Translations under genes and position numbers: made by a program
Shown here: positions 31,377-46,334 of the stretch, piece after piece
How positions within the stretch are numbered: position 1 is the first letter of the stretch
Layout of the letters: each line of letters starts with the position of its first letter
From: an uncultured bacterium
GTDB taxonomy: Bacteria; Cyanobacteriota; Vampirovibrionia; Gastranaerophilales; Gastranaerophilaceae
Direction of reading: 5' to 3'
Assembly: GCA_902777605.1 (NCBI GenBank)
Contig: CACYUI010000001.1
Location: forward strand, 124,001 to 188,000
Length of the DNA stretch: 64,000 bases
Notes under the pieces: generated by a model
The model's input: the letters and a program-made list of their open reading frames with translations, nothing else
The model's database searches: none
What the model was told of the DNA's origin: nothing

Positions 31377-32345
31377 ATGTTAATGGAAGAAAGTTTTGTA
31401 GAAAACGGATTTATTATTGATTTAAGTAATGCAAAAGATACTTCACAATTGGTGCATGAGCTTAGTTCAATAATGGAACATCCCGATGTAAAAGGAAAAA
31501 ATTTATGCTTAAAACTTGGAAGTACGGACCTTAAGCAATCGCAACTCTTGAGTATAAAAGCTTTAATTGAAACAATGGGAGCATCTATAGCTTTTGTTGA
31601 TACATCTTCTGAACAAACAGAAGCCTCTGCTGTAAGTCTTGGTGTTATGATTTCTAAAGTTAAAGATAATGAAAACATTGGCTCTTTGGGAATTTCAGAA
31701 GAAACCACAAGCGAGGAAATTACAGATAAAGTTATAGAAGTAGTCGCTGATACTCAAATGACATCTCCTTCAATAGAAACAACTGAAGGAATAGAAGATG
31801 TTTATGACGAAGTATCAACAGAAGAATTATCTGAAATAATACCTTCAGAAAGCTATAACAATAGCGATTTTGGCGCATTAGCCGTTCATGAAGGTCTTAT
31901 TCCAACAGAAGAAGCAAGCAAATATATTATCCTTGATACAGGAAATGTTTTACCGGAAGGTGTTGAAGAAAATACAATCGATACAAAGACTCTTCCTACA
32001 CTATATATAAATCAGACGCTTCGTTCCGGTCAAACAATTAGCTATGAAGGAAATATCCTAATTATTGGCGATGCTCACCCCGGAAGTGAAATTATAGCGG
32101 GCGGAGATATTACCGTATGGGGCATTTTAGGCGGAATCGCTCATGCCGGTAATTGCGGAAATATAACTGCTAAAGTAAGAGCTCTTAAATTAAATGCAAT
32201 ACAGTTAAGGATTGCCGGTTTATATGCAAGGCGTAATGATACTTTAAATGTACCATATGTTCAAAAATCAAATGAGTTTACACCGGAAGAAGCTCTTATA
32301 GAAGAAGGTAAAATTGTAATTTATAAAAAGTTAAGGAGAGATTAA
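31377..32345 (+). CDS. minC: Septum site-determining protein MinC
   Basis: FtsZ assembly inhibitor recruited by MinD. The 322 residues comprise a MinC_N-like domain (1-90, LCLKLGSTDLKQSQLLSIKALIETMGASIAFVDT), an acidic Glu-rich linker (about 100-200) longer than usual, and a classical C-terminal beta-helix (TLYINQTLRSGQTISYEGNILIIGDAHPGSEIIAGGDITVWGILGGIAHAGNCGNITAKVRALKLNAIQLRIAGLYAR). The TAA stop overlaps the minD ATG by one base. Expression upstream may begin after the terminator at 31278. Confidence 0.95.
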   Translation: MLMEESFVENGFIIDLSNAKDTSQLVHELSSIMEHPDVKGKNLCLKLGSTDLKQSQLLSIKALIETMGASIAFVDTSSEQTEASAVSLGVMISKVKDNENIGSLGISEETTSEEITDKVIEVVADTQMTSPSIETTEGIEDVYDEVSTEELSEIIPSESYNNSDFGALAVHEGLIPTEEASKYIILDTGNVLPEGVEENTIDTKTLPTLYINQTLRSGQTISYEGNILIIGDAHPGSEIIAGGDITVWGILGGIAHAGNCGNITAKVRALKLNAIQLRIAGLYARRNDTLNVPYVQKSNEFTPEEALIEEGKIVIYKKLRRD

Positions 32346-33157
32346 TGACTGGCCGAGTAATAGTTATAACATCAGGAAAAGGTGGTGTAGGTAAAACCAC
32401 TACAAGTGCAAATATTGGTACTGCGCTTGCAAAGTCTGGCTACAAAGTTGTCCTTATCGATACAGACTTAGGACTTCGTAACCTTGATTTGTTATTGGGT
32501 TTAGAAAACAGAATTGTATATACAATTGTTGATGTAATAGAAGAGAGATGCAAACTAAGACAAGCTTTGGTAAAGGATAAAAAGAACCCTAATCTTTCTC
32601 TTTTGGCAGCTGCTCAAACAAGAGATAAAACTGCCGTTAATGCAGATCAACTTAAAGAAATATGTGATACTTTAAAAGAAGAAAACGATTTTGTATTAGT
32701 TGACTGTCCTGCCGGTATTGAACAAGGGTTCCAAAATGCTGTAGCAGGGGCTAGCGAAGCAATCGTTGTTACAACTCCCGAAATGTCAGCAATTCGTGAT
32801 GCAGACAGAATCATCGGACTTTTAGCAACAAAAGAAGAAATTACAAGCACTAAGTTATTGCTAAACAGGGTTCGCCCCAACCTTATCAAAACTAACGAGA
32901 TGATGAGTGTTGATGATGTTGTTGGCATATTGGAAATTCCTTTAGTTGGTATAATTCCTGAAGATACAGGAATTATTACATCTACAAATAAAGGTGAACC
33001 AATTGTTAATGATGAAACTGCTTTAGCCGGCAAAGCATATAGAAATGTTGCCGAAAGAATTTTGGGTGAAGAAGTTCCATTCTTGAACTTAGACGAACCA
33101 AAAGGTTTTATGGCAAAAATAAAAAATGCTTTTGCAAAACTGAAAGCGAAGGTGTAG
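32345..33157 (+). CDS. minD: Septum site-determining ATPase MinD
   Basis: Membrane-associated ATPase that recruits MinC and is released by MinE. The 270-residue protein has the deviant Walker A KGGVGKTTTSANIG near residue 11, a switch region (FVLVDCPAGIEQGFQNAVAGA) and a C-terminal amphipathic membrane-targeting helix (GFMAKIKNAFAKLKAKV). Second gene of the minCDE operon, one base before minE. Confidence 0.97.
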   Translation: MTGRVIVITSGKGGVGKTTTSANIGTALAKSGYKVVLIDTDLGLRNLDLLLGLENRIVYTIVDVIEERCKLRQALVKDKKNPNLSLLAAAQTRDKTAVNADQLKEICDTLKEENDFVLVDCPAGIEQGFQNAVAGASEAIVVTTPEMSAIRDADRIIGLLATKEEITSTKLLLNRVRPNLIKTNEMMSVDDVVGILEIPLVGIIPEDTGIITSTNKGEPIVNDETALAGKAYRNVAERILGEEVPFLNLDEPKGFMAKIKNAFAKLKAKV

Positions 33158-33158
33158 A

Positions 33159-33809
33159 ATGAGCCTTTTTTCAAATTTATATAGTGCTGTAGCGAAGTTT
33201 TTCCGCTCGCAGGAAGAAACAGAGGAAGCATCAAAATCAGTTGCAACAAACAGATTAAAGCTTGTTTTAATGCAAGACAGAACAAATCTGACACCAAGAA
33301 TTCTTGAACAAATGAGAAGTGAGTTAATAGATTTGTTATCAAGATATGTTGAATTAGACAAAGAGCTTCTTGATTTGAATTTTGAACAAGAAGGTGATCA
33401 AGTAGCACTTATGCTTTCAATACCTGTAATAAGAGCAAAAGATGAAGAAGAAATTGAGGCGGCTATAAAAGCACATCAAGAATCTCTTAGTATAAAAAGT
33501 GATGACAACAGTGATGAAAACGATACTTCAGAAGTTTCAGAAAAAGATGTTGTTATTTCTGATAGCGAAGAGATTGAAGAAAACAATGATACCAATGTAA
33601 TAGAAGAGGTCGATAATCAAGACATAGAAGAAACTACAGAAGAAGCTGAAGAAGCAAAAAAAGCGGATGATATAGCAAAAGAACTTCAAAGTAAACCAAC
33701 TGTAATAAAGAAAAAGAAAGTATCTGCTCCTGAGGATATAAGTAATAATCCTTTTAGGTCTGAAAATATTGAAGCTCAAGAAAAGCTGGAAAGTACATCT
33801 GAAACATAA
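33159..33809 (+). CDS. minE: MinE with a long acidic C-terminal extension
   Basis: Topological specificity factor that stimulates MinD ATPase. Residues 1-100 match MinE well: membrane-binding N-terminal helix (MSLFSNLYSAVAKFF), the MinD-interacting NRLKLVLMQDRTNLTPRILEQMRSELIDLLSRYVELD segment and the dimer strand VALMLSIPVI. A further 116 residues of acidic low-complexity sequence follow (SDDNSDENDTSEVSEKD ... EETTEEAEEAKKADDIAKEL), then a basic patch (VIKKKKVSAPED). MinE is normally 80-105 residues, so the tail doubles its size. Confidence 0.93.
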   Translation: MSLFSNLYSAVAKFFRSQEETEEASKSVATNRLKLVLMQDRTNLTPRILEQMRSELIDLLSRYVELDKELLDLNFEQEGDQVALMLSIPVIRAKDEEEIEAAIKAHQESLSIKSDDNSDENDTSEVSEKDVVISDSEEIEENNDTNVIEEVDNQDIEETTEEAEEAKKADDIAKELQSKPTVIKKKKVSAPEDISNNPFRSENIEAQEKLESTSET

Positions 33810-36708: not shown

Positions 36709-37281
36709 ATGTCAGAAGATTTTGAAATTGAAAAAAATGAAAATGAAGAAATTAAAAACAACGAAAGTAATGGTAAAGTAATAGATGAAGCCAATTATAG
36801 AATTCGTGCTCCACGAGAAAAAGGACCCAGTGCGGTTGGCAGAGGGGGAGATCCCTTGTTTAGACGAATAAATGCTACAAGAGAACAATTAATAGAATTG
36901 ATGGAAGAAACTCAAACTGTACAAGATTGGGTTCAACGCGAAACTTGCAACAATGTGGCACTCGCTTGTTTAGATAGTGAAAATTTAAAAGAAATTTATT
37001 TTGAGATAAAAGATGGCTTTGGAGAATATGGAAAAATTTCTCTTATGGGGTTCAAAACACCATCAGGTGTAGAAATTCCAAGACTAAAAGTATATGATAC
37101 AAACGGTGAAGTTTTAGAAGTTTTAACAGGACCACTCGCTATTGATGAAATTAACAAAAGAGCAATTGCCTATAGAAATTCTGTTCAAGAATATGATGCC
37201 GTACCTCAAGAAGGTAATGAAGCAATTGTAGAAAGTGTAATAGCAGATTACTCCGGAAATCCTGATGATTATACTACTTAG
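36709..37281 (+). CDS. Unknown protein under a sigma-28-like promoter
   Basis: The 190-residue soluble protein begins with a charged, Asn/Glu-rich stretch, then a Gly/Arg-rich motif (RAPREKGPSAVGRGGDPLFRRINATREQLIELMEET) and a mixed alpha/beta region (IYFEIKDGFGEYGKISLMGFKTPSGVEIPRLKVYDTNGEVLEVLTG). No family recognised. The start follows AAGGAG. Expression from a FliA-type promoter suggests a flagellum-associated role. The last eight bases overlap the convergent gene ending at 37274. Confidence 0.65.
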   Translation: MSEDFEIEKNENEEIKNNESNGKVIDEANYRIRAPREKGPSAVGRGGDPLFRRINATREQLIELMEETQTVQDWVQRETCNNVALACLDSENLKEIYFEIKDGFGEYGKISLMGFKTPSGVEIPRLKVYDTNGEVLEVLTGPLAIDEINKRAIAYRNSVQEYDAVPQEGNEAIVESVIADYSGNPDDYTT

Positions 37282-40216
37282 AACCTTTTTTAAGTGCAAT
37301 ACCATTCAATTTGCAAAATGATGTAAATATGGAGATTTCATCTTTAATTTTCTGTTGCATATATTTGTTATCAGAAGTAATCGGCACACTTTTTGCCATT
37401 TGAAACATTTTTAACGAATTCTTAATGTACTCTGCTCTTTGAGAAGTTTTTGGTAAAGCAAGCTCTTGATACAGTTTGGCATAAATTAAATATGCATCTG
37501 TAAGTATTTGTTCCATATCAAATTGTTTTGATACAAATATAGATTTTTCAATATAAACTTTTGCAGACTCAAAATCTTGCTTTGCAATATAAATTTCACC
37601 AATAAGTTTGTTAAAAAGTGCTATAAAATAATAATTATTTACATTTGGACCTTGGGCTATATCAAGTGCTTTTGTTGCAATATCCAACGCAAATTGAGTC
37701 CCTCTTGTAACCAATTTTATTTGAGCAATTAGATACCAGCTTAATAATACACCTGTTGCGACTTTTTCTTTTGCAAAATATGCTACTTGTTCGTCTAATA
37801 TTTCTAAAGCTTTTTTTGTATCATTTTTTTCTTTTAAAATTTTTGACAATAATGTTTTTAAAATATTCTTAGTAAAACTATCGTTTACATTATTTGCATA
37901 CGCTACCACATTAAACAATTCATAGTTAATATTGTCATAATCTTTCTCTGCAAATTTATTTAGTATATCAATAAAATTCCATCTTGATACAATAAAAGAA
38001 TCCATACTATCTAAAGAATATTCTTTTAAAATATCATCAAGAATTTTTTCAGAAGTCTGTACATCTCCTTTTACAGTATTAGCCAATGCTAATGCAAGAT
38101 GCACTCGACATAGAATTGTTGTATCTGTTATTTTATTTTTTTCTGTAATATCAAAAATAAGTTTTATGATATCAAACATTCTATTGTCACCTTGGAGAGT
38201 CAAAGCTTCTGCTAAATCAAAATAAATTTCAAGCCAAAGATTGTACAATTCTTTTATTGATATTACCGAAGAGTCCTTTCCTTTTGCCAAATATTTCTCA
38301 AAGACAGGCATTATTTCTGTATCAATTAAGTTTACAACTTGACCATAGTTACCTAATTTCACCAATGGTCTTATTTGGCGGGATTTAATTAAAGCGCGCT
38401 CAAAATCCATATTTTCCGGAATTTTGTTTAAGACACTGTCTGCACATTCTATTGCTCCCCAGTAATTTCCACTTTTCATAGATACCGTTGCCAAATAACC
38501 TAGTAAATCAATATGTGCATATTCTTCATCATCATATAAAAGCATAATTGCATTTTGTAAATATTCAAAAGCTGCTTTATGATCTATTGGTTCTAATAAT
38601 TTACCAATACGCGTATTTATATTCTTTTTGACTTTATTATAATAAATATTAGTTTTGTGCTCTATTAATTTTAAAGCTTGCTTTTGCGAAATTATGTAAA
38701 GACCAATATCTCCAATGTACGAAGCTTGTTTCATTAAAATTGTCCATAATTCAAAAGCTTGTTCATTATTATTTAGCTTTTGTACAATATAAGCAAGCAA
38801 TGCAATTGATGATTGTTTATAAATCCCCAAAATATCTAATAGTACATTTAAAATTTCTTCAAATGTATTGTCATTTTTTACTAATGATACAATAGATTTC
38901 CATATCTCGTGTGATTTGAATTCAAAAGTAAGGTTATTTATTTGATTAATATACCCGTTTTGCACCAAAGCATCAATTATTCTTTCAAACTCCTGCGGAG
39001 AATTGTTATCAAAATGCTCCAACATAGCAGGGTAGAACCGTCTGCCCAAGATTGACATAGCCAGCAAAGTTCTGTATGCGGATAGGTCTTCTTGTCTTAG
39101 AATTCCTAATCTGGCATCAATAATATTATCCAAACCTGAATAATTAATTTGTTTTAATTTATTTCTTTTAATATCCCTGCTCAACATTATAAATTGCTCA
39201 ATAACAGCAGGTACTCCTTTAGAAATTTTTAAAGCTTCTTTAACAAAATCTTTACTCACATCAATATCTTTATATTGATTTACTAAAGCTTCAACTTGTA
39301 CTTCTGAAAATGGCGCAATAGTTATATTTATATAATTATCATCCGTTAATTTCGGAGAGTTTATAAGACCTAGCCCCGGACGCATTGATGAAGACAATAA
39401 TATAAATTTGCACCTTTCAAGAAAATAATCATCTTTCAGCATCTCTCCTAAAAAGTCGAAAGACATTCCATCTATATTTTCGAAATTATCTATTACAAAA
39501 ATAGCTTTCATTTTTTCTACAATAGTTAAAAAAACTTTTTTCATTATAGAAAACATTTTTGCTTTATTTTTATAAATATTTTCATATTTATCTAAATTTT
39601 CAGGATAAAGAACATTTAGTAAATCAAGAATTTCTGTATTTGAAAGAGCCGGAAAATCCTGCTTAAAAAACTTAATGGAATTTTTTTTGAGTTGTAATGT
39701 ATCTGCACAAAAATTATTGATGTTGAAAAATGTTAGCAAAAGATCCTGAAAATACCCAAAAGGAGAAAGTTGAGTTAGTTGTGTACAACTACCTGTCAGC
39801 CATATAATCTTTGCATTTTTTAAATCACCAATTACATAACGCAACACCAAATTTTTTCCTAAACCGCTTTCACCGTTTAGTGTAATAATTGTTGAATCAG
39901 CACCTTTTATTGCATCTAACAATTTAACTCTTGCTTTTTGTTGAGAAAAAGATTCCGATACATAATCTGTTTTCACATTCAATGTCTGTTTTACAAGTTT
40001 TGTTCCACATTTTCTGCATACATGAGAATTTGGTAAATTTGCTGCTCCACATTTAGAGCACAATTTTAATAAAACAGCATGACAATTTGTACATTCTGTT
40101 GCATTTATAGGATTTATGTTACCACAATGCTTACAAGATGAAGCCACTTTAGTTCCACAATTTGTACATTTAAGTGAGTTGTCTTCTATTTCTTTTTTGC
40201 ATTTTGGACATTGCAT
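37274..40216 (-). CDS. Zinc-ribbon / STAND-like NTPase / TPR protein
   Basis: 980 residues. The N-terminus has several zinc-ribbon knuckles (CPKCKKEI, CTNCGT, CKHCGNINPINATECTNC, CSKCGAANLPNSHVCRKCG, about 3-72). Next is an AAA_16/NACHT-like NTPase with Walker A GESGLGKN near residue 115 and a Walker B-like FVIDNFENID. The remainder is a long helical TPR-like array (about 450-960). The last Walker A residue is Asn where Ser or Thr normally contacts magnesium, so hydrolysis may be altered. Similar ribbon-ATPase-TPR proteins usually carry a cyclase domain; none is seen here. Last gene of a three-gene operon. Confidence 0.7.
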   Translation of the reverse strand: MQCPKCKKEIEDNSLKCTNCGTKVASSCKHCGNINPINATECTNCHAVLLKLCSKCGAANLPNSHVCRKCGTKLVKQTLNVKTDYVSESFSQQKARVKLLDAIKGADSTIITLNGESGLGKNLVLRYVIGDLKNAKIIWLTGSCTQLTQLSPFGYFQDLLLTFFNINNFCADTLQLKKNSIKFFKQDFPALSNTEILDLLNVLYPENLDKYENIYKNKAKMFSIMKKVFLTIVEKMKAIFVIDNFENIDGMSFDFLGEMLKDDYFLERCKFILLSSSMRPGLGLINSPKLTDDNYINITIAPFSEVQVEALVNQYKDIDVSKDFVKEALKISKGVPAVIEQFIMLSRDIKRNKLKQINYSGLDNIIDARLGILRQEDLSAYRTLLAMSILGRRFYPAMLEHFDNNSPQEFERIIDALVQNGYINQINNLTFEFKSHEIWKSIVSLVKNDNTFEEILNVLLDILGIYKQSSIALLAYIVQKLNNNEQAFELWTILMKQASYIGDIGLYIISQKQALKLIEHKTNIYYNKVKKNINTRIGKLLEPIDHKAAFEYLQNAIMLLYDDEEYAHIDLLGYLATVSMKSGNYWGAIECADSVLNKIPENMDFERALIKSRQIRPLVKLGNYGQVVNLIDTEIMPVFEKYLAKGKDSSVISIKELYNLWLEIYFDLAEALTLQGDNRMFDIIKLIFDITEKNKITDTTILCRVHLALALANTVKGDVQTSEKILDDILKEYSLDSMDSFIVSRWNFIDILNKFAEKDYDNINYELFNVVAYANNVNDSFTKNILKTLLSKILKEKNDTKKALEILDEQVAYFAKEKVATGVLLSWYLIAQIKLVTRGTQFALDIATKALDIAQGPNVNNYYFIALFNKLIGEIYIAKQDFESAKVYIEKSIFVSKQFDMEQILTDAYLIYAKLYQELALPKTSQRAEYIKNSLKMFQMAKSVPITSDNKYMQQKIKDEISIFTSFCKLNGIALKKGSK

Positions 40217-40228
40217 TCCTAAAAACCT

Positions 40229-41974
40229 TTATACCAAATCAACAATTTCATTTAATGCTTTTACGACAACTTCAGGAGACATTGATAATTCTTCTGAAAT
40301 TGTAGAAATATCTTTATTTTTATTATACTTTGCATCATAAACTGCAAAAATATTCAATTCTGGATATTTATTATTTAATTCTGTCAAATCTTTTATTAAA
40401 TCTTGTTTATCATTGTCAGAATATTTTTCTCGGACAGGAGTATAACTAAATGCATCAAAGTTTACAATACTTAAATTATTATCCTGTTTTGTTTCTTGCA
40501 AGTCATCACTATTATTCTCATGCATAAATTCTTGAGAAAAATCTTCTGTTTCTTCTAACGAAGATTCCTGCATTGTGCCTAACTCGTTTATATCATCATC
40601 ATTATTATCAACATTTTCCAACAAATCTTCTGCCAAATTTGATTCATTTAATATAAAGTCAGAATCAACGGAAACATTGTCATCTTGCTGTAATAGAAAA
40701 TCTTCTTCCTCAAAATTTTCTTGTATATCTATCTGATCGTTTATATCTGTCAAATCTGCATTAAAATCAACAGCTTGCTCTTCTATAGAATCAAAAGTAT
40801 TTTCAAAATCAGTTTCTTCAATCTCATCACTTTCGGCTTCTTCAGATATACTTTCCTGCAAATCATCAGAACCTTCACTATAATTTAATTCCAAAATTTC
40901 ATCAGTCTGATTATCTTCTTCAAAATTACTATTTTCTATAGCAGGTTCTTCTATTAAATCATTGTCTGCTATAGTATTTTGAGCATCAGAAACTTCTTCT
41001 ATGTCCAATGGCTGAACATCATCAAATGTTTGTTCTTCTGATACATTGAACCCAATATCGTTTTCATTTTCATTTTTGTTAACATCTATTTCTATTTCTT
41101 CATCAATTAAGGCATCTTCGTCCAATACTGCATCTATAGTTTCAGTAGCTTGATTATCTTCTTCATTTTCTAACGGTTGAACAATGACAAACGACTGTTC
41201 TTCTAAATCCTTGGATTCAATATCAGTTTTGTTTTCATTGACTGTTTCTTCAATTTCATTTTCTAAAAAAGAATTTTCTTCTGAAATTGCATCGATATCA
41301 TCAAATAAATAATTATCTTCTGTTTCTGTATCTTTAAATTGAGTATCGGTGAAATTAAGATTTTCAGAATCATTTAAGTCTAAATTGGTGACATTATCTG
41401 CATCTTCTTCTACAATATCTTCTTCAGAAATAATATTTGTTTCAGTATTAGTTTCTTCTGTAGCTATAGACAAATTGTTTTCGTTATCTATAGTTTCTTC
41501 TTTTGCAGTATTCTCTACAACATCATAAGATACTAATTTTTGTTCTTCTGTTAAAATTTTGTCAGTAGCACTACTTTGATAATCTAAATCAACAGATACA
41601 GAATTAATCATTTTATCAACATATTCTACTCTTGCAGCATTACTTATACCGTTTATATTAGTGTCTTCAGAGCTTGCTTCAATAGCAGAACTGTTTTTAA
41701 CAACATTATTAATAACAGGCTCTACAGATATCGTATTCTTTATATCAGGTTTACTGTATCCTAATTTTTTGGGAACCGTTATTACTGAAGTTGCAATAAC
41801 TTTTTCAAAATAGGCCTTAATTACATTTTCATCGGTAATCGTTTTAAGAATAACCTCTGAGTGCGCATAAACATCCGCAATAATGTCATCTAATATAGCT
41901 TCATACCCGGGAAATTTCCTATGATTTTTTACAAGCTCTTCTATAATGCCATAATATTTGTTGTTTCTATCCAT
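40229..41974 (-). CDS. Highly acidic protein with conserved ends, unknown function
   Basis: 581 residues. A folded-looking N-terminus (1-75, KYYGIIEELVKNHRKFPGYEAILDDIIADVYAHSEVILKTITDENVIKAYFEKVIATS) and a C-terminal helical region are separated by about 400 residues of Asp/Glu-rich, probably disordered sequence. The C-terminal helices look like a small helix-turn-helix (DISTISEELSMSPEVVVKALNEIVDLV). No membrane segment or signal peptide. It is 12 bases upstream of the zinc-ribbon NTPase and 15 downstream of the TonB-like gene. The linker length would suit a tether or scaffold between partners; this is inference. Confidence 0.6.
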   Translation of the reverse strand: MDRNNKYYGIIEELVKNHRKFPGYEAILDDIIADVYAHSEVILKTITDENVIKAYFEKVIATSVITVPKKLGYSKPDIKNTISVEPVINNVVKNSSAIEASSEDTNINGISNAARVEYVDKMINSVSVDLDYQSSATDKILTEEQKLVSYDVVENTAKEETIDNENNLSIATEETNTETNIISEEDIVEEDADNVTNLDLNDSENLNFTDTQFKDTETEDNYLFDDIDAISEENSFLENEIEETVNENKTDIESKDLEEQSFVIVQPLENEEDNQATETIDAVLDEDALIDEEIEIDVNKNENENDIGFNVSEEQTFDDVQPLDIEEVSDAQNTIADNDLIEEPAIENSNFEEDNQTDEILELNYSEGSDDLQESISEEAESDEIEETDFENTFDSIEEQAVDFNADLTDINDQIDIQENFEEEDFLLQQDDNVSVDSDFILNESNLAEDLLENVDNNDDDINELGTMQESSLEETEDFSQEFMHENNSDDLQETKQDNNLSIVNFDAFSYTPVREKYSDNDKQDLIKDLTELNNKYPELNIFAVYDAKYNKNKDISTISEELSMSPEVVVKALNEIVDLV

Positions 41975-41989
41975 AAAATTTCTTTTACC

Positions 41990-43567
41990 TTATAACTTTA
42001 TTATTAACACAGGGTTACCCTGCAACTTATTGAACGAATCAGTATTAACACTAATACTCATATTTAACGCTTTATTAACTGTCTGCATAATAACATCATC
42101 AACAGCCTTTTCTCCACTTGAAGATAATATTCCAACAGTTTCAAATTTCTTGGAGCTGTTGTTATATTTAATTTCTACCGTAATTTTATTCGTAATAGGC
42201 GGTCTATTAAGCAACAACAATTCTGTTTTTAAATTTAGCTGAATAATTTTTCCAAGTTTTATCAAATATCTTTTTGCAGATGTATTTGAGGCATAGCCGG
42301 ATGGAACTTCCCAGTCAATTTTCAAATTAGATACCAATATTGAAGTATCCAGATTATTTTCAATTGCAGGAATCGATACTGATGCAGCTTCTTCAGTATT
42401 TTTAGGCTTAGTATTATTTTCTACAGTCTCTATTGGCATAGCATCATTAACATCAACGGCTTCACCAACATTTTTGGTATTATTAACAGTTTCTATTGGA
42501 GCAGAGTTATCAGAAATGTCATCAGTCATTTCAGACGGCATAAAATTGGTATAACCATAATATCCGGCACCACCTAACACAACTAATAAAAGAACCCACA
42601 ATAATGGAGATCTTCTCTTTTTTGTTACAACAGGAACTTCAACATCCATATTATCAGATTCAATTTGATTATCAGAAAATTCTTCTGCTTGTTCTTGTTC
42701 AAATAATGTGTCAATTTGCTCGCTATTTTGTTGTTCCTCAGAACTAACATCTTTTTCTGGTACATAGTCTAAATCTTCAGCCGAAATATTTGGTGTAGTT
42801 ACTGTTGTATATTTAATATCTTCAAAAGCTTTTCCTGCTTCATCTGTCGCACTATACATTTCATCAGACTCGTTTATAAGTTCACTAAATCCGCTGTCCT
42901 CTATCTTATTTTGCAATTCTTCTACATTGATAGAGACAAATTTATATGTATCATCTGCTTTTGCGATTTTAGCCAAACGATTTCTCGCACTTACTGACAA
43001 AATAAGTTTTTTATATATTTCACCTTGATTGATATTTCCATCAACAAAATTAAATAACTCTTCATCTGTAACAACATCTTCACTATCCACCGTAACAATG
43101 CGGTTTTCTATATCGTAAAAAGAAACTAATTCAGATTCTCTAACGATATAATATCCCTCTTGATCAATTGATTTATCTACATGATAAGGTGCTATAAAGC
43201 CGGAAACAACCCCTTCTGAAAGTTCATCATTCAACTTAATGAACATATATGCAACAGGAAGAATGTCGTTATCAAAATGAGACTTAGGCACACTGGGAGT
43301 GTCACCGTCAAAATAGAACCTTACATCAATATATGAACCATTTATATATATATCTGAAATGTCAATATTTTTAAGTACAAAAGGTATATTGTGAAGACCT
43401 GAAATAACATCTACAGAATAAATACTGTCATTGAAAAAACTTAGTGCTATATTGCCTGCAAGCACATTTGCTACTGCTCTGTTCCTTGTAGTTTCATCCT
43501 CAATTACACTACACGCTTTTTGTGCATTAAAAATTTCTTGACTATCCAAAAATATATTTGTATTCAC
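41990..43567 (-). CDS. Bitopic membrane protein with TonB-like C-terminal domain
   Basis: 525 residues, first gene of the operon with the acidic and zinc-ribbon proteins. The cytoplasmic N-terminal domain (1-200) somewhat resembles cyanobacterial DUF1822 (GSYIDVRFYFDGDTP ... AYMFIKLNDELSEGVVSGFIAPYHVD). An acidic linker leads to a single membrane helix near residues 322-340 (SPLLWVLLLVVLGGAGYYGYTNF). The periplasmic part ends in a TonB-like domain (IDWEVPSGYASNTSAKRYLIKLGKIIQLNLKTELLLLNRPPITNKITVEIKYN ... SSSGEKAVDDVIMQTV). No ExbB/ExbD is nearby. A trans-envelope signalling or energising role is possible. Confidence 0.6.
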   Translation of the reverse strand: MNTNIFLDSQEIFNAQKACSVIEDETTRNRAVANVLAGNIALSFFNDSIYSVDVISGLHNIPFVLKNIDISDIYINGSYIDVRFYFDGDTPSVPKSHFDNDILPVAYMFIKLNDELSEGVVSGFIAPYHVDKSIDQEGYYIVRESELVSFYDIENRIVTVDSEDVVTDEELFNFVDGNINQGEIYKKLILSVSARNRLAKIAKADDTYKFVSINVEELQNKIEDSGFSELINESDEMYSATDEAGKAFEDIKYTTVTTPNISAEDLDYVPEKDVSSEEQQNSEQIDTLFEQEQAEEFSDNQIESDNMDVEVPVVTKKRRSPLLWVLLLVVLGGAGYYGYTNFMPSEMTDDISDNSAPIETVNNTKNVGEAVDVNDAMPIETVENNTKPKNTEEAASVSIPAIENNLDTSILVSNLKIDWEVPSGYASNTSAKRYLIKLGKIIQLNLKTELLLLNRPPITNKITVEIKYNNSSKKFETVGILSSSGEKAVDDVIMQTVNKALNMSISVNTDSFNKLQGNPVLIIKL

Positions 43568-43680
43568 CTAACACTCTCCCATGCTCAGGTAAATAATACC
43601 ATATTTTATTAAAAAAATCTATATTTTGACATTTTTTTATAGATTATTAAACCATATAGTGTATATTACAAACTAATAAT

Positions 43681-43707
43681 TCAAGATTTAATTGTAATAT
43701 CCGTTTA
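43681..43707 (+). promoter_or_regulatory. Possible sigma-28 promoter of the lytic transglycosylase
   Basis: TCAAGATT (6 of 8 to TAAAGTTT), exactly 11 bases, TCCGTTTA (5 of 8 to GCCGATAA), 21 bases upstream of the ATG at 43729. Confidence 0.35.
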
Positions 43708-43728
43708 ACTTAGTGAAAGGATTATTAT

Positions 43729-44382
43729 ATGTTTTCATCAATGATTCAAAATCTTTTATCTTCATCAGGGCAGTCAAATGCTATGCAAAGAGCGGTCCAG
43801 ATGAATAGTTATATTCAAAAATATAATTCAGAATGGACTCCGGTTGAAAAAACAGCTCAAAAACCGCAACAAGAAATTCAATCTTTTGACAAAGTTCTAA
43901 AAAACTCAACTACAGTAAAATTTGGTGATTTAATTACAAATCCGTCAACAAGAGTAAATGCGCAGCTGTATACTGCACAAGCAACCGGAAGCGAAAAACT
44001 AACTCCTCGTCAAAAGATACAAGAAATCGTTTCCAGAATGTCAAAAAAACATGGTGTTGATGAAAAGCTAGTTAATGCACTTATTAAACAAGAATCAGGT
44101 TTTAATCCTAATGCAAAATCAAAAGTAGGTGCTATGGGGCTTATGCAGTTAATGCCGTCAACAGCTAAGGGTTTGGGTGTAACAAATCCGATGGATCCTG
44201 AACAAAATGTTGAAGGTGGTGTAAAATATCTAAAATCAATGCTTAATAAGTATAACGGGAACATTATATTAGCTCTTGCAGCTTATAATGCAGGTCCCGG
44301 AGCTGTTGACAAATATGACGGAGTGCCTCCATACAAAGAAACACAAAATTATGTCAGATCAATTTTAGCTACATATCTCTAG
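43729..44382 (+). CDS. Lytic transglycosylase, SLT/Slt70 C-terminal type
   Basis: Cleaves the peptidoglycan glycan strand, forming 1,6-anhydro ends. The 217-residue protein has a polar N-terminus without signal peptide ([24 protein letters not shown]). From about residue 105 it has a complete SLT domain: [42 protein letters not shown] (catalytic Glu in KQES), [18 protein letters not shown] and [29 protein letters not shown]. The lack of a Sec signal plus a possible sigma-28 promoter suggests export by the flagellar machine, like other flagellar muramidases. Its stop shares a CTAG with the convergent gene. Confidence 0.9.
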
Positions 44383-46334
44383 GCTGAAGTCTTTAATTTT
44401 TGTTGTTCTCGTTCCCTATCTTCTTTTTCGTGAATTCTTCTGGTATTTTTATATGTTAGCCTTGGGATTACCCAACCTAAGATATATGGTGAAATAAAGA
44501 AGGTTGTAAGAATACCTGGAACTGAATTTAAACCTCTTGCAAAAGCTGCTATTTTATTGCCTTTTCCGCCTGCAGCTGCACCTTTCATAAGTTTAGTAAT
44601 CATGCTGTCGATAGATTTTTTATCAACATTTTTTGTCAGTTTTTTAGCATGCTCTTCGATACTTTCTACAAAAGATATAATTTTCTTATTTTTCTCTGTT
44701 ACTGATAAATTTTTAATAGATTCAAGGTTAAATGTCTTTTCATTAAATACTGTTTTAGCTTCTTCTGATTTTGACAATACTTTCTCCAAGTCACCACCAT
44801 TCTTCTCTATGTATTTGCAGAAGTTTAACATTTTTTCTTTTGAATCAATATTGTTATAAAGCGATGTTATTTCAGCATTAGAAAGGACATGTGCTTTACT
44901 ATATGGGTTAAACAAGTCAAGAATTGTTTTTGACTTACTCATGTTTCTATCTTTGTTCATAAGTACAAAACCTGAATTCTTTTCGTATGCAGTTACTGCT
45001 GCTCTTGTAAGCATAGGCACCGCAAACACTACTGCAAGAGAAGATGTTACATCCCTAAGAAGTATTTCATATAATTCCGTCAAGTCTTTTTTGCCTTTTT
45101 CATCTGTTTGTGCTCTGTTATATGCCCTTAAACCTCTGGGAGTTAACAAACCAAATAAAGATAAGCCTGTCATTAATGTATGAGTAAAATTATGACCATT
45201 GTACTCCAGTTCTTTTGATACAAATTCGCTCTTATTTTTGTCAACGGCTTTTCCTAATTTTTCTATAAATCCGTTTCCTTTACCTTTGAATGCAACATTT
45301 TGTTCTTTACCATTTACCTGTTGCTGCACATTTTGTCTTGCTCCCGGAGCAACATTACTTCTAGCATAAATTTTTGGTAAAACCGATAATACACCAAGTG
45401 TTGCCGCTATCATAGAAACAGTGGTAATAACACGCTTACCAAGCGCATTGTGTTTAATACTTTCTGCCATTACAGAATCTAATTTTTCTAATTTTTTATT
45501 AGCTGTAATTGCATCGTTAGCATACTTCATCATGCCATCCAACGCATTTCTCGTCTTAAATACATTCTCGCCTTTATTTGATCCCAACTGAAGTTTCTGA
45601 AGCATTTCAAGATCAGAGCCGGTCGTATATTTCAAATTATTAATATGTTCGACAATATTATCCATGCATTGAGAACGATATTTTGATTTACCGTTAAATT
45701 TAGCAAGTTTTGTACCTTCAGGAATATTTTCCATATTCTTAAGTTGAGCCATTATATAATCGATTGACTCTTGTGTTACATTTTCTTTTCCAAGTGTATT
45801 CTCTAAAGCTTGTTTTACATTTTTTCTATAAAATTCTGTTTTGAACTGTTCAGGATTTTTTAGTAAATTTCTGTCAAAATCTTTTTCAGAAATCATTTCT
45901 TGCAAGCTATTACCATAATGTTGAATCAACTTAGAATTAATACTCGTTGTTTTTCCACATTTTGCAGCTAAATAAAGAGAAATCGGTGCAACTGCCATCA
46001 TACAAGGACCTGTTAAGCCTTCTCTTCCAAGAACTTCAAAACCTTCTTGAACATTATAATGCCCGGTTACTTCTTTGTCTCTAAGAAAACCCGCAACACT
46101 TCTCGGCACAGTCATGCCAAAAAAGTCTTGAATTAAAAACAACACAAGGAAACCGCCATTTTCAATCCAGTTCATCAAGCTGCCTGATTTATTCAAAAAT
46201 GTTGTCATACCGGATTTGAAAGCAGGAGATGATACTGCACCATACTGTGCTCCATGCGATTTATTTTCAGTTTCGGGGGTAATTTTGTTAAAATTTCCGA
46301 TGCCTGATATATTGTTGTTTGAATGAATTTCCAA
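44379..46334 (-). CDS. Large membrane-associated protein of unknown function
   Basis: 651 residues without a known family. There is no N-terminal signal ([25 protein letters not shown]). Several hydrophobic stretches are likely membrane helices ([84 protein letters not shown]), interspersed with long helical regions. Short SPAFKSG and VAFKGKG segments may be lineage-typical motifs. It is preceded by the bipartite promoter-like element and two TTGTTACA boxes. Convergent with the transglycosylase, sharing four bases. Confidence 0.6.

Follow-up and report, generated by a model that had tools for sequence, protein, structure and literature searches.

A conserved three-gene operon of gut Gastranaerophilales probably encodes a modified sigma/anti-sigma membrane complex with a degenerate STAND-like partner

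The window analyzed here, a 64,000-nt stretch of DNA from a Gastranaerophilales genome, contains three successive open reading frames (ORFs) on the minus strand, which encode proteins of 525, 581, and 980 amino acids. Gene 1 (41990–43567, GTG start) encodes a bitopic, apparently anti-sigma-like protein, as judged from its orthologues, Pfam, and an AF2 model; it is composed of a DUF1822-type domain, a class I anti-sigma (ASDI) domain, an acidic linker, a transmembrane (TM) helix, and a C-terminal domain with the TonB/TolA fold. Gene 2 (40229–41974) encodes a putative sigma-factor homologue with an expanded acidic linker, and gene 3 (37274–40216) encodes a zinc-ribbon/STAND-like AAA/TPR protein. 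The genes are separated by 15 bp (genes 1 and 2) and 12 bp (genes 2 and 3). The original prediction had described three tightly spaced genes with this anatomy, and the ORFs, gaps, folds, and domains agree with it. A Pfam scan of the window proteins of genes 1 and 2 gave no direct match, and these two genes were assigned through their orthologues and the folds predicted for them.

The 3′ end of gene 3 overlaps by 8 bp with a convergent 190-residue ORF (36709–37281, plus strand), which has no Pfam match and has relatives in 41 loci. On the other side of the operon, an SLT lytic transglycosylase gene (43729–44382, plus strand) is transcribed divergently and has relatives in 32 loci; a functional link of this gene to the envelope is possible. 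Beside it lies an ORF of 651 residues (44379–46334, minus strand), which is also without a Pfam match and whose relatives are found next to the SLT gene in 28 loci. Three successive ORFs at 31377–33809 (plus strand) resemble MinC, MinD, and MinE by eye only.

In most of 32 aligned upstream regions, a conserved element, TGnTAT(T/C)AT, is found about 25 bp upstream of gene 1 and its GTG codon; it reads TGGTATTAT in the window (43593–43601, minus strand). This putative extended −10-like element resembles a housekeeping promoter. Within the intergenic region (43567–43729), the sequence ATTAAACCAnATAGTG, which lies towards the SLT gene, is strongly conserved in the genus and shows no enrichment in the window genome. 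A regulon sharing the promoter motif ATTAAACCANATAGTG, taken from the upstream region, was considered and rejected, as 13 sites with up to two mismatches were found against 10 for the reversed control, which is no excess.

The gene 3 protein is present in all 34 genomes of the genus that were searched, including that of the window. It forms one stretch in 33 of them (in one case from residue 84 on) and is divided between two contigs in the other; in 32 of the 33 other genus genomes, it is conserved whole or nearly whole with 62–74% identity. The gene 1 protein was found in 33 of the 34 genomes, and a search for related loci with the window gene 1 protein alone as the query returned none. The complete order gene 1–gene 2–gene 3 was observed in 46 of 59 loci (genome contigs). 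In nine further loci, gene 2 is present and the contig then ends; locus L121 starts inside gene 3, and locus L132 starts 163 bases before it. Loci L133 and L134 (about 40% identical) carry gene 3 without genes 1 and 2 adjoining. The 46 loci are those with enough upstream DNA to be testable, and the three genes are adjacent in every one of them, so that the conserved neighborhood proposed as a check on the original prediction was indeed found. Because gene 3 occurs genus-wide and the gene order is the same in 46 of 46 loci, a chance origin of the trio is rejected. The spacing is 7–30 bp between genes 1 and 2 and −50 to 16 bp between genes 2 and 3, where the value of −50, as well as one of 797, comes from locus L136, in which gene 2 is broken by stretches of X. 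Among the relatives that bear a name, many are metagenome-assembled genomes of Candidatus Gastranaerophilales, and several of these come from rumen or gut samples.

It could be argued that the three genes are neighbors by general synteny only and do not act jointly, since the genus likewise conserves the flanking SLT transglycosylase gene and 190-residue ORF, gene 3 lies on another contig in several other families, and L133 and L134 have gene 3 without genes 1 and 2 next to it. However, the divergent loci L125, L126, and L128, where DNA on both sides is available, retain the trio, whereas relatives of the SLT gene and the 190-residue ORF were not detected there, and in divergent clade members the called ORFs 2 and 3 share up to 35 bp. 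We therefore regard neighborhood by synteny alone as very improbable. Beyond the clade, all three genes adjoin one another in two loci from two other families (L062 of genome G044 and L063 of genome G037). Genes 1 and 2 adjoin each other in L067, L068, L070, L074, and L076 with gene 3 on another contig; on these draft contigs, a separation of gene 3 is probable for each locus.

The gene 2 protein consists of a sigma2-like end (residues 1–77; 41744–41974, minus strand), a disordered acidic linker (residues 78–514; 40433–41743), and a sigma4-like helix-turn-helix end (residues 515–581; 40232–40432) with the recognition helix SPEVVVKALNEIVDLV. The linker of 437 residues contains 31% Asp and Glu and has a net charge of −125. 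In the AF2 model (mean pLDDT of 52.9), both ends are confident, with values for the sigma2-like end mostly of 82–95 to residue 70 and 73 thereafter, and the linker is almost wholly below 50 at residues 80–495. The composition and the model thus agree with the earlier description of this protein as an acidic linker between two folded ends. Residues 519–581 were aligned by VIA-align with the −35 domain of SigD (Z of 8.6, rmsd of 1.5, 56 residues aligned), followed by SigC (Z of 8.1) and sigmaE (Z of 8.0). The first 70–77 residues match sigma2 of E. coli sigmaE, SigR, and SigC (structures 4lup, 2o7g, and 1h3l in order of neither name nor rank), with Z of 5.6–6.0. Foldseek gave weak E-values for the window protein (about 1 or more), with sigma factors in many rows.

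Orthologues of gene 2 at the same place in other families are mostly compact, with 186–193 residues (296 in L062). All three that were scanned match Sigma70_r4/r4_2 (L063, 1e-7; L074, 6.5e-7; L062, 6.5e-6), and the window protein detects several compact orthologues by phmmer (7e-7 to 4e-4). A profile of eleven compact members, searched against the PDB with E-values up to 1, matched only sigma factors, including SigW (0.0019, collinear over profile positions 20–175), SigF, and RpoE. Taken with the predicted ends, the orthologue profile indicates a sigma2 plus sigma4 arrangement without sigma3. Gene 2 accordingly appears, from the profiles and the model, to be a homologue of the ECF-type sigma factors. 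We name it a sigma-factor homologue and not a sigma factor, a term that would demand binding to core RNA polymerase and the directing of transcription.

Two features set the window protein apart from ECF sigma factors. The first is the linker between sigma2 and sigma4, which is short in ECF sigma factors. The other sequences of the long-linker type have 200–593 residues here with a net charge of −62 to −184, and seven compact sequences of the same alignment have 22–26 nearly neutral residues. A survey of sigma factors reported that accessory domains are never placed between the essential sigma domains (PMC11119718). The second is the recognition helix, which is basic in ECF-type sigma4 domains and nearly devoid of basic residues in the window protein. 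Per 16-residue recognition-helix window, the number of Lys and Arg residues is 3.67 in order-level (n = 6), 1.00 in compact (n = 7), and 0.63 in long-linker sequences (n = 30), and the corresponding net charges are +1.17, −1.57, and −3.00. The loss of these basic residues argues against normal reading of a −35 element, although it does not prove the absence of such reading, and promoter recognition by gene 2 of the window genus appears doubtful. The window genome also has two ordinary ECF sigma genes (L200:1117–2225 and L201:839–1686), and next to each of them is a gene for a putative zinc anti-sigma protein. These sigma factors end in the basic helices KSRIARARFKLQKQL and KSRIYNAKKELAETL, and their neighbors are small proteins with Hx3Cx2C-type motifs.

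In gene 1, the AF2 model is confident for residues 1–205 and most of 410–525. Four helices (residues 168–224) follow the DUF1822-type domain and lie within the putative ASDI domain (residues 165–225; 42893–43075, minus strand). A profile of the anti-sigma segments of nine orthologues gave RsiW as its top PDB match (1.2e-4), and DdvA, ChrR, and RslA were found lower down as non-significant matches. In three orthologues, zf-HC2 was observed with E-values of 0.0038–0.0063, below the Pfam cut-off. The motif Hx3Cx2C is present in five of nine order-level orthologues (HLSHCDEC, HLATCESC, HISSCIDC, HLLVCEEC, and HIANCDEC), and the zinc ligands are absent from the window protein. The zinc motif is missing from about 44% of the domains of this class (PMC7406223). 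The layout of the four helices is like that described for this class, in which helices 1 and 4 touch sigma4 and sigma2 (PMC7406223). The VIA-align rows for the gene 1 model contain no anti-sigma structures, which does not exclude them. Judging from the profile and the model, gene 1 carries a likely ASDI helical domain and adjoins a sigma-type gene, and we describe it as anti-sigma-like.

A single TM helix (residues 322–342; 42542–42604, minus strand), recognized in the AF2 model and from the sequence, is preceded by KKRR, which suggests that the N-terminus is inside and the C-terminus is outside. The C-terminal domain (residues 402–525; 41993–42364) has the TonB/TolA fold. It was aligned with 1tol (Z of 8.3, rmsd of 3.1, 98 residues aligned), and H. 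pylori TonB (Z of 7.3) and TolA III (Z of 7.2) were further matches; its profile matches TolA and TonB weakly, and Pfam TonB_2 is above the cut-off in the orthologue L074. The TM helix and this fold agree with the earlier proposal of a trans-envelope protein. The same fold would also be expected if gene 1 were an energized transducer of the TonB/TolA type, with the products of genes 2 and 3 as cytoplasmic accessories and not regulators. However, the His residue in the TM helix of TonB is needed for coupling to ExbBD, and no His occurs in the TM helix of the gene 1 protein of the window, L062, L063, or L074. Moreover, the cytoplasmic half is formed by a DUF1822-type domain and an anti-sigma domain, and the partner is a sigma homologue. 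An energized transducer is thus quite unlikely.

The N-terminal domain of gene 1 (residues 25–159; 43091–43495, minus strand) is predicted with pLDDT mostly above 90 and appears to be homologous to DUF1822 (PF08852). Matches above the Pfam cut-off of 25 bits were obtained for the orthologues L062 (40.5), L063 (32.3), and L067 (38.7); window gene 1 does not reach the cut-off, and the window genome has no DUF1822 match. Nearly all VIA-align rows on residues 1–160 are PD-(D/E)XK nucleases, led by I-Ssp6803I (Z of 7.8) and Hjc (7.5) and followed by DpnI, EcoRV, NaeI, and RecU, all with Z below 8, where chance matches arise. The best Foldseek E-value was 0.04. A PD-(D/E)XK assignment was also sought by sequence profile and rejected, as no relative was found and only weak cGAS matches appeared, which were taken as chance. 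The window protein has the motif D72-x8-D81-V-R83, with Arg in place of the Lys of the catalytic D…(D/E)xK signature, and the motif is missing in the orthologues L062, L065, and L073. The fold resemblance to PD-(D/E)XK proteins is therefore suggestive, and nuclease activity of the domain seems unlikely.

DUF1822 was found in 129 of 194 genomes of the phylum and in none of 14 control genomes. In 20 of 30 loci from genomes of the same phylum, DUF1822 is directly preceded by an ORF that matches the gene 2 sigma profile; a scan of four such ORFs gave a Sigma70_r4 match for each. In EACC2-caspase neighborhoods, the joint occurrence of DUF1822 and an ECF sigma factor was noted by Kaur and co-workers (PMC8195603). 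The original prediction had recognized no known system with this set of genes; that statement has to be revised, because DUF1822 adjoining a sigma factor is already on record in other bacteria (PMC8195603) and gene 1 appears homologous to class I anti-sigma factors of the membrane, as gene 2 does to ECF sigma factors. The gene pairing here is the same as in the published sigma–DUF1822 pairs. Elsewhere in the phylum, the DUF1822 ORFs mostly have 300–500 residues, the sigma ORF comes first, and those that were read have no TonB-like end, whereas gene 1 adds the anti-sigma, TM, and TonB/TolA regions and the STAND-like third gene then follows. The shared pairing, and the STAND NTPases that occur as variable domains in the EACC2-caspase neighborhoods (PMC8195603), would be compatible with a conflict or cell-death system of that kind. 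However, no caspase-like neighbor was recognized beside the operon, PADLOC gave no match in the three proteins, and the set is present in nearly every genus genome searched, unlike patchy defense systems. Such a role is the least probable of the alternatives considered.

Gene 3 begins with zinc ribbons (residues 1–75; 39992–40216, minus strand), which are supported by Pfam and invariant Cys columns (Zn_Ribbon_1, 9e-14; DZR, 6e-10). A weak AAA_16 match (9e-5) was also obtained, and TPR_MalT-like repeats (residues 797–916; 37469–37828; E of 3.7e-4) are located in the C-terminal part. The Walker A sequence is GESGLGKN (residues 115–122; 39851–39874), with Asn in place of Ser or Thr, and the Walker B sequence is FVIDNFE (residues 240–246; 39479–39499), where order-level relatives have IEDFE. 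Within the clade, 56 of 58 gene 3 sequences have GKN, and GKS remains in L037 and L108; the second Walker B position is Asn, Lys, Ser, His, or Cys in all 58, so the acid is lost. In all eleven order-level orthologues that belong to other families, both motifs are intact, with GK[ST] followed later by ED or DD, and weak NB-ARC/NACHT/nSTAND matches were found among order-level orthologues.

Eight order-level orthologues have an extra domain between the zinc ribbons and the AAA core. It has no Pfam match and no PDB sequence-profile match of note; it was aligned by hhalign with a profile of 14 class III cyclase domains over 147 columns (probability of 96.6, E of 6e-10). The stretch corresponding to the first metal site reads VELIN against LFADxxGFT in the cyclase profile, and the metal-binding Asp is lost; the domain thus appears to be a degenerate class III cyclase domain. 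It is absent from window gene 3 and its clade and also from L066, L071, and L079. A class III cyclase domain is encoded elsewhere in the window genome (G000:C8:44926–45468; Guanylate_cyc, E of 7e-32) within a 668-aa frame, and one such match was found in each of 13 other family genomes searched. The window genome also has a gene 3 paralogue of 1094 residues with a zinc-ribbon N-terminus (L081:6466–9750, G000:C5). Beside it, on the other strand, a 295-residue protein without a Pfam match and a 216-residue OmpA-domain protein are encoded, a pair that by eye is MotAB/ZorAB-like.

The original prediction had envisaged that the set passes an envelope signal to a cytoplasmic STAND switch, which would make gene 3 the ATP-driven receiver at the end of the relay. 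The AAA_16 and TPR matches, the NB-ARC/NACHT/nSTAND matches and intact Walker motifs of order-level orthologues, and a cyanobacterial sigma class that unites r4_2, NB-ARC, and TPR_MalT in a single polypeptide (PMC11119718) favor such a role. The cyanobacterial SigR-type proteins (PMC11119718) likewise join sigma4 to a STAND–TPR module, but there in one chain, whereas here the genes are separate and adjacent and the NTPase motifs are degenerate. Window gene 3 does not have the intact Walker A and B motifs of STAND NTPases as judged from its sequence, GKN and the loss of the Walker B acid prevail in the clade, and the cyclase-like domain is gone. Because both motifs are degenerate, an ATP-driven switch is unlikely in the window lineage, and the gene 3 scaffold is probably ATP-dead. 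A link between envelope and cytoplasm is still plausible; it is the switch part of the relay that lacks support.

The closest parallels are SigW–RsiW and sigmaE–RseA, in which the sigma factor also has sigma2 and sigma4 without sigma3 and a membrane anti-sigma factor with an ASDI domain adjoins it; in the PDB, the best profile match of the gene 2 family is SigW and that of the gene 1 family is RsiW. In contrast to these systems, the operon has the 437-residue acidic linker, a recognition helix stripped of basic residues, the anti-sigma gene in first place, added DUF1822-type and TonB/TolA domains, and a third gene. Cell-surface signaling by FecI–FecR (PMC2729926) relies on the same elements as proposed here: an envelope cue, an anti-sigma factor in the membrane, and a sigma factor of the ECF type. 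However, the anti-sigma-like protein of the operon itself bears the TonB/TolA-fold domain, and no TonB-dependent receptor gene was recognized beside the operon. No description of the set was found in the literature searched on sll0688, on sigma factors of Gastranaerophilales and Melainabacteria, and on anti-sigma proteins with a TonB C-terminal domain, in part at the level of titles and abstracts.

Taken together, the three genes probably represent a strongly modified sigma/anti-sigma switch with a large added helper protein, and there are good grounds to propose that they encode a membrane complex derived from a sigma/anti-sigma pair. The proposal is built on what sequence and structure comparison show, namely the homologies, the arrangement of the domains, and the adjacency of the genes in relatives. 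The presumably cytoplasmic anti-sigma domain of gene 1 would grip the sigma2 and sigma4 ends of gene 2, the presumably periplasmic TonB/TolA-fold domain would receive an envelope cue, and gene 3, with its zinc ribbons, TPRs, and degenerate STAND-type NTPase core, would assist the two in the cytoplasm as a partner or scaffold, possibly bound to either protein.

In the window lineage, several parts for DNA reading and ATP use have been worn away, and the operon may therefore have ceased to be a classical gene switch. The losses concern the cyclase metal site and domain, the Walker residues, the zinc ligands, and the basic residues of sigma4, and they would be consistent with a move away from catalysis and DNA reading towards protein–protein work. 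We tentatively favor the idea that gene 2 of the window genus has lost −35 reading and now functions in docking or mimicry. PhyR–NepR–sigmaEcfG, in which a sigma-like protein binds the anti-sigma factor without directing transcription, provides a model for this function (PMC5830050). However, the operon has neither a receiver domain nor NepR, and the two ordinary ECF sigma factors read in the window genome adjoin small putative anti-sigma proteins of their own. Somewhat less likely, gene 2 would still be a working sigma factor that the acidic linker and the anti-sigma domain keep off DNA until it is released. Extending the docking idea to all three proteins, we suggest with similar reserve that a pseudo-sigma factor, stretched by its very long acidic disordered linker and incapable of −35 reading, docks on a membrane anti-sigma-like protein with nuclease-like and TonB/TolA-fold domains and that a pseudo-STAND protein completes an envelope complex, conserved in gut Melainabacteria, that works purely through protein–protein contacts.

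With these assignments, three conserved genes of gut Melainabacteria regarded as unknown obtain a first identity, and DUF1822 is linked to anti-sigma domains. The relatives form a natural series that leads from a compact, basic sigma factor with an intact-looking NTPase to a stretched, acidic homologue with a dead-looking NTPase. This series makes the loss of DNA reading and of ATP use by a regulatory module testable step by step.
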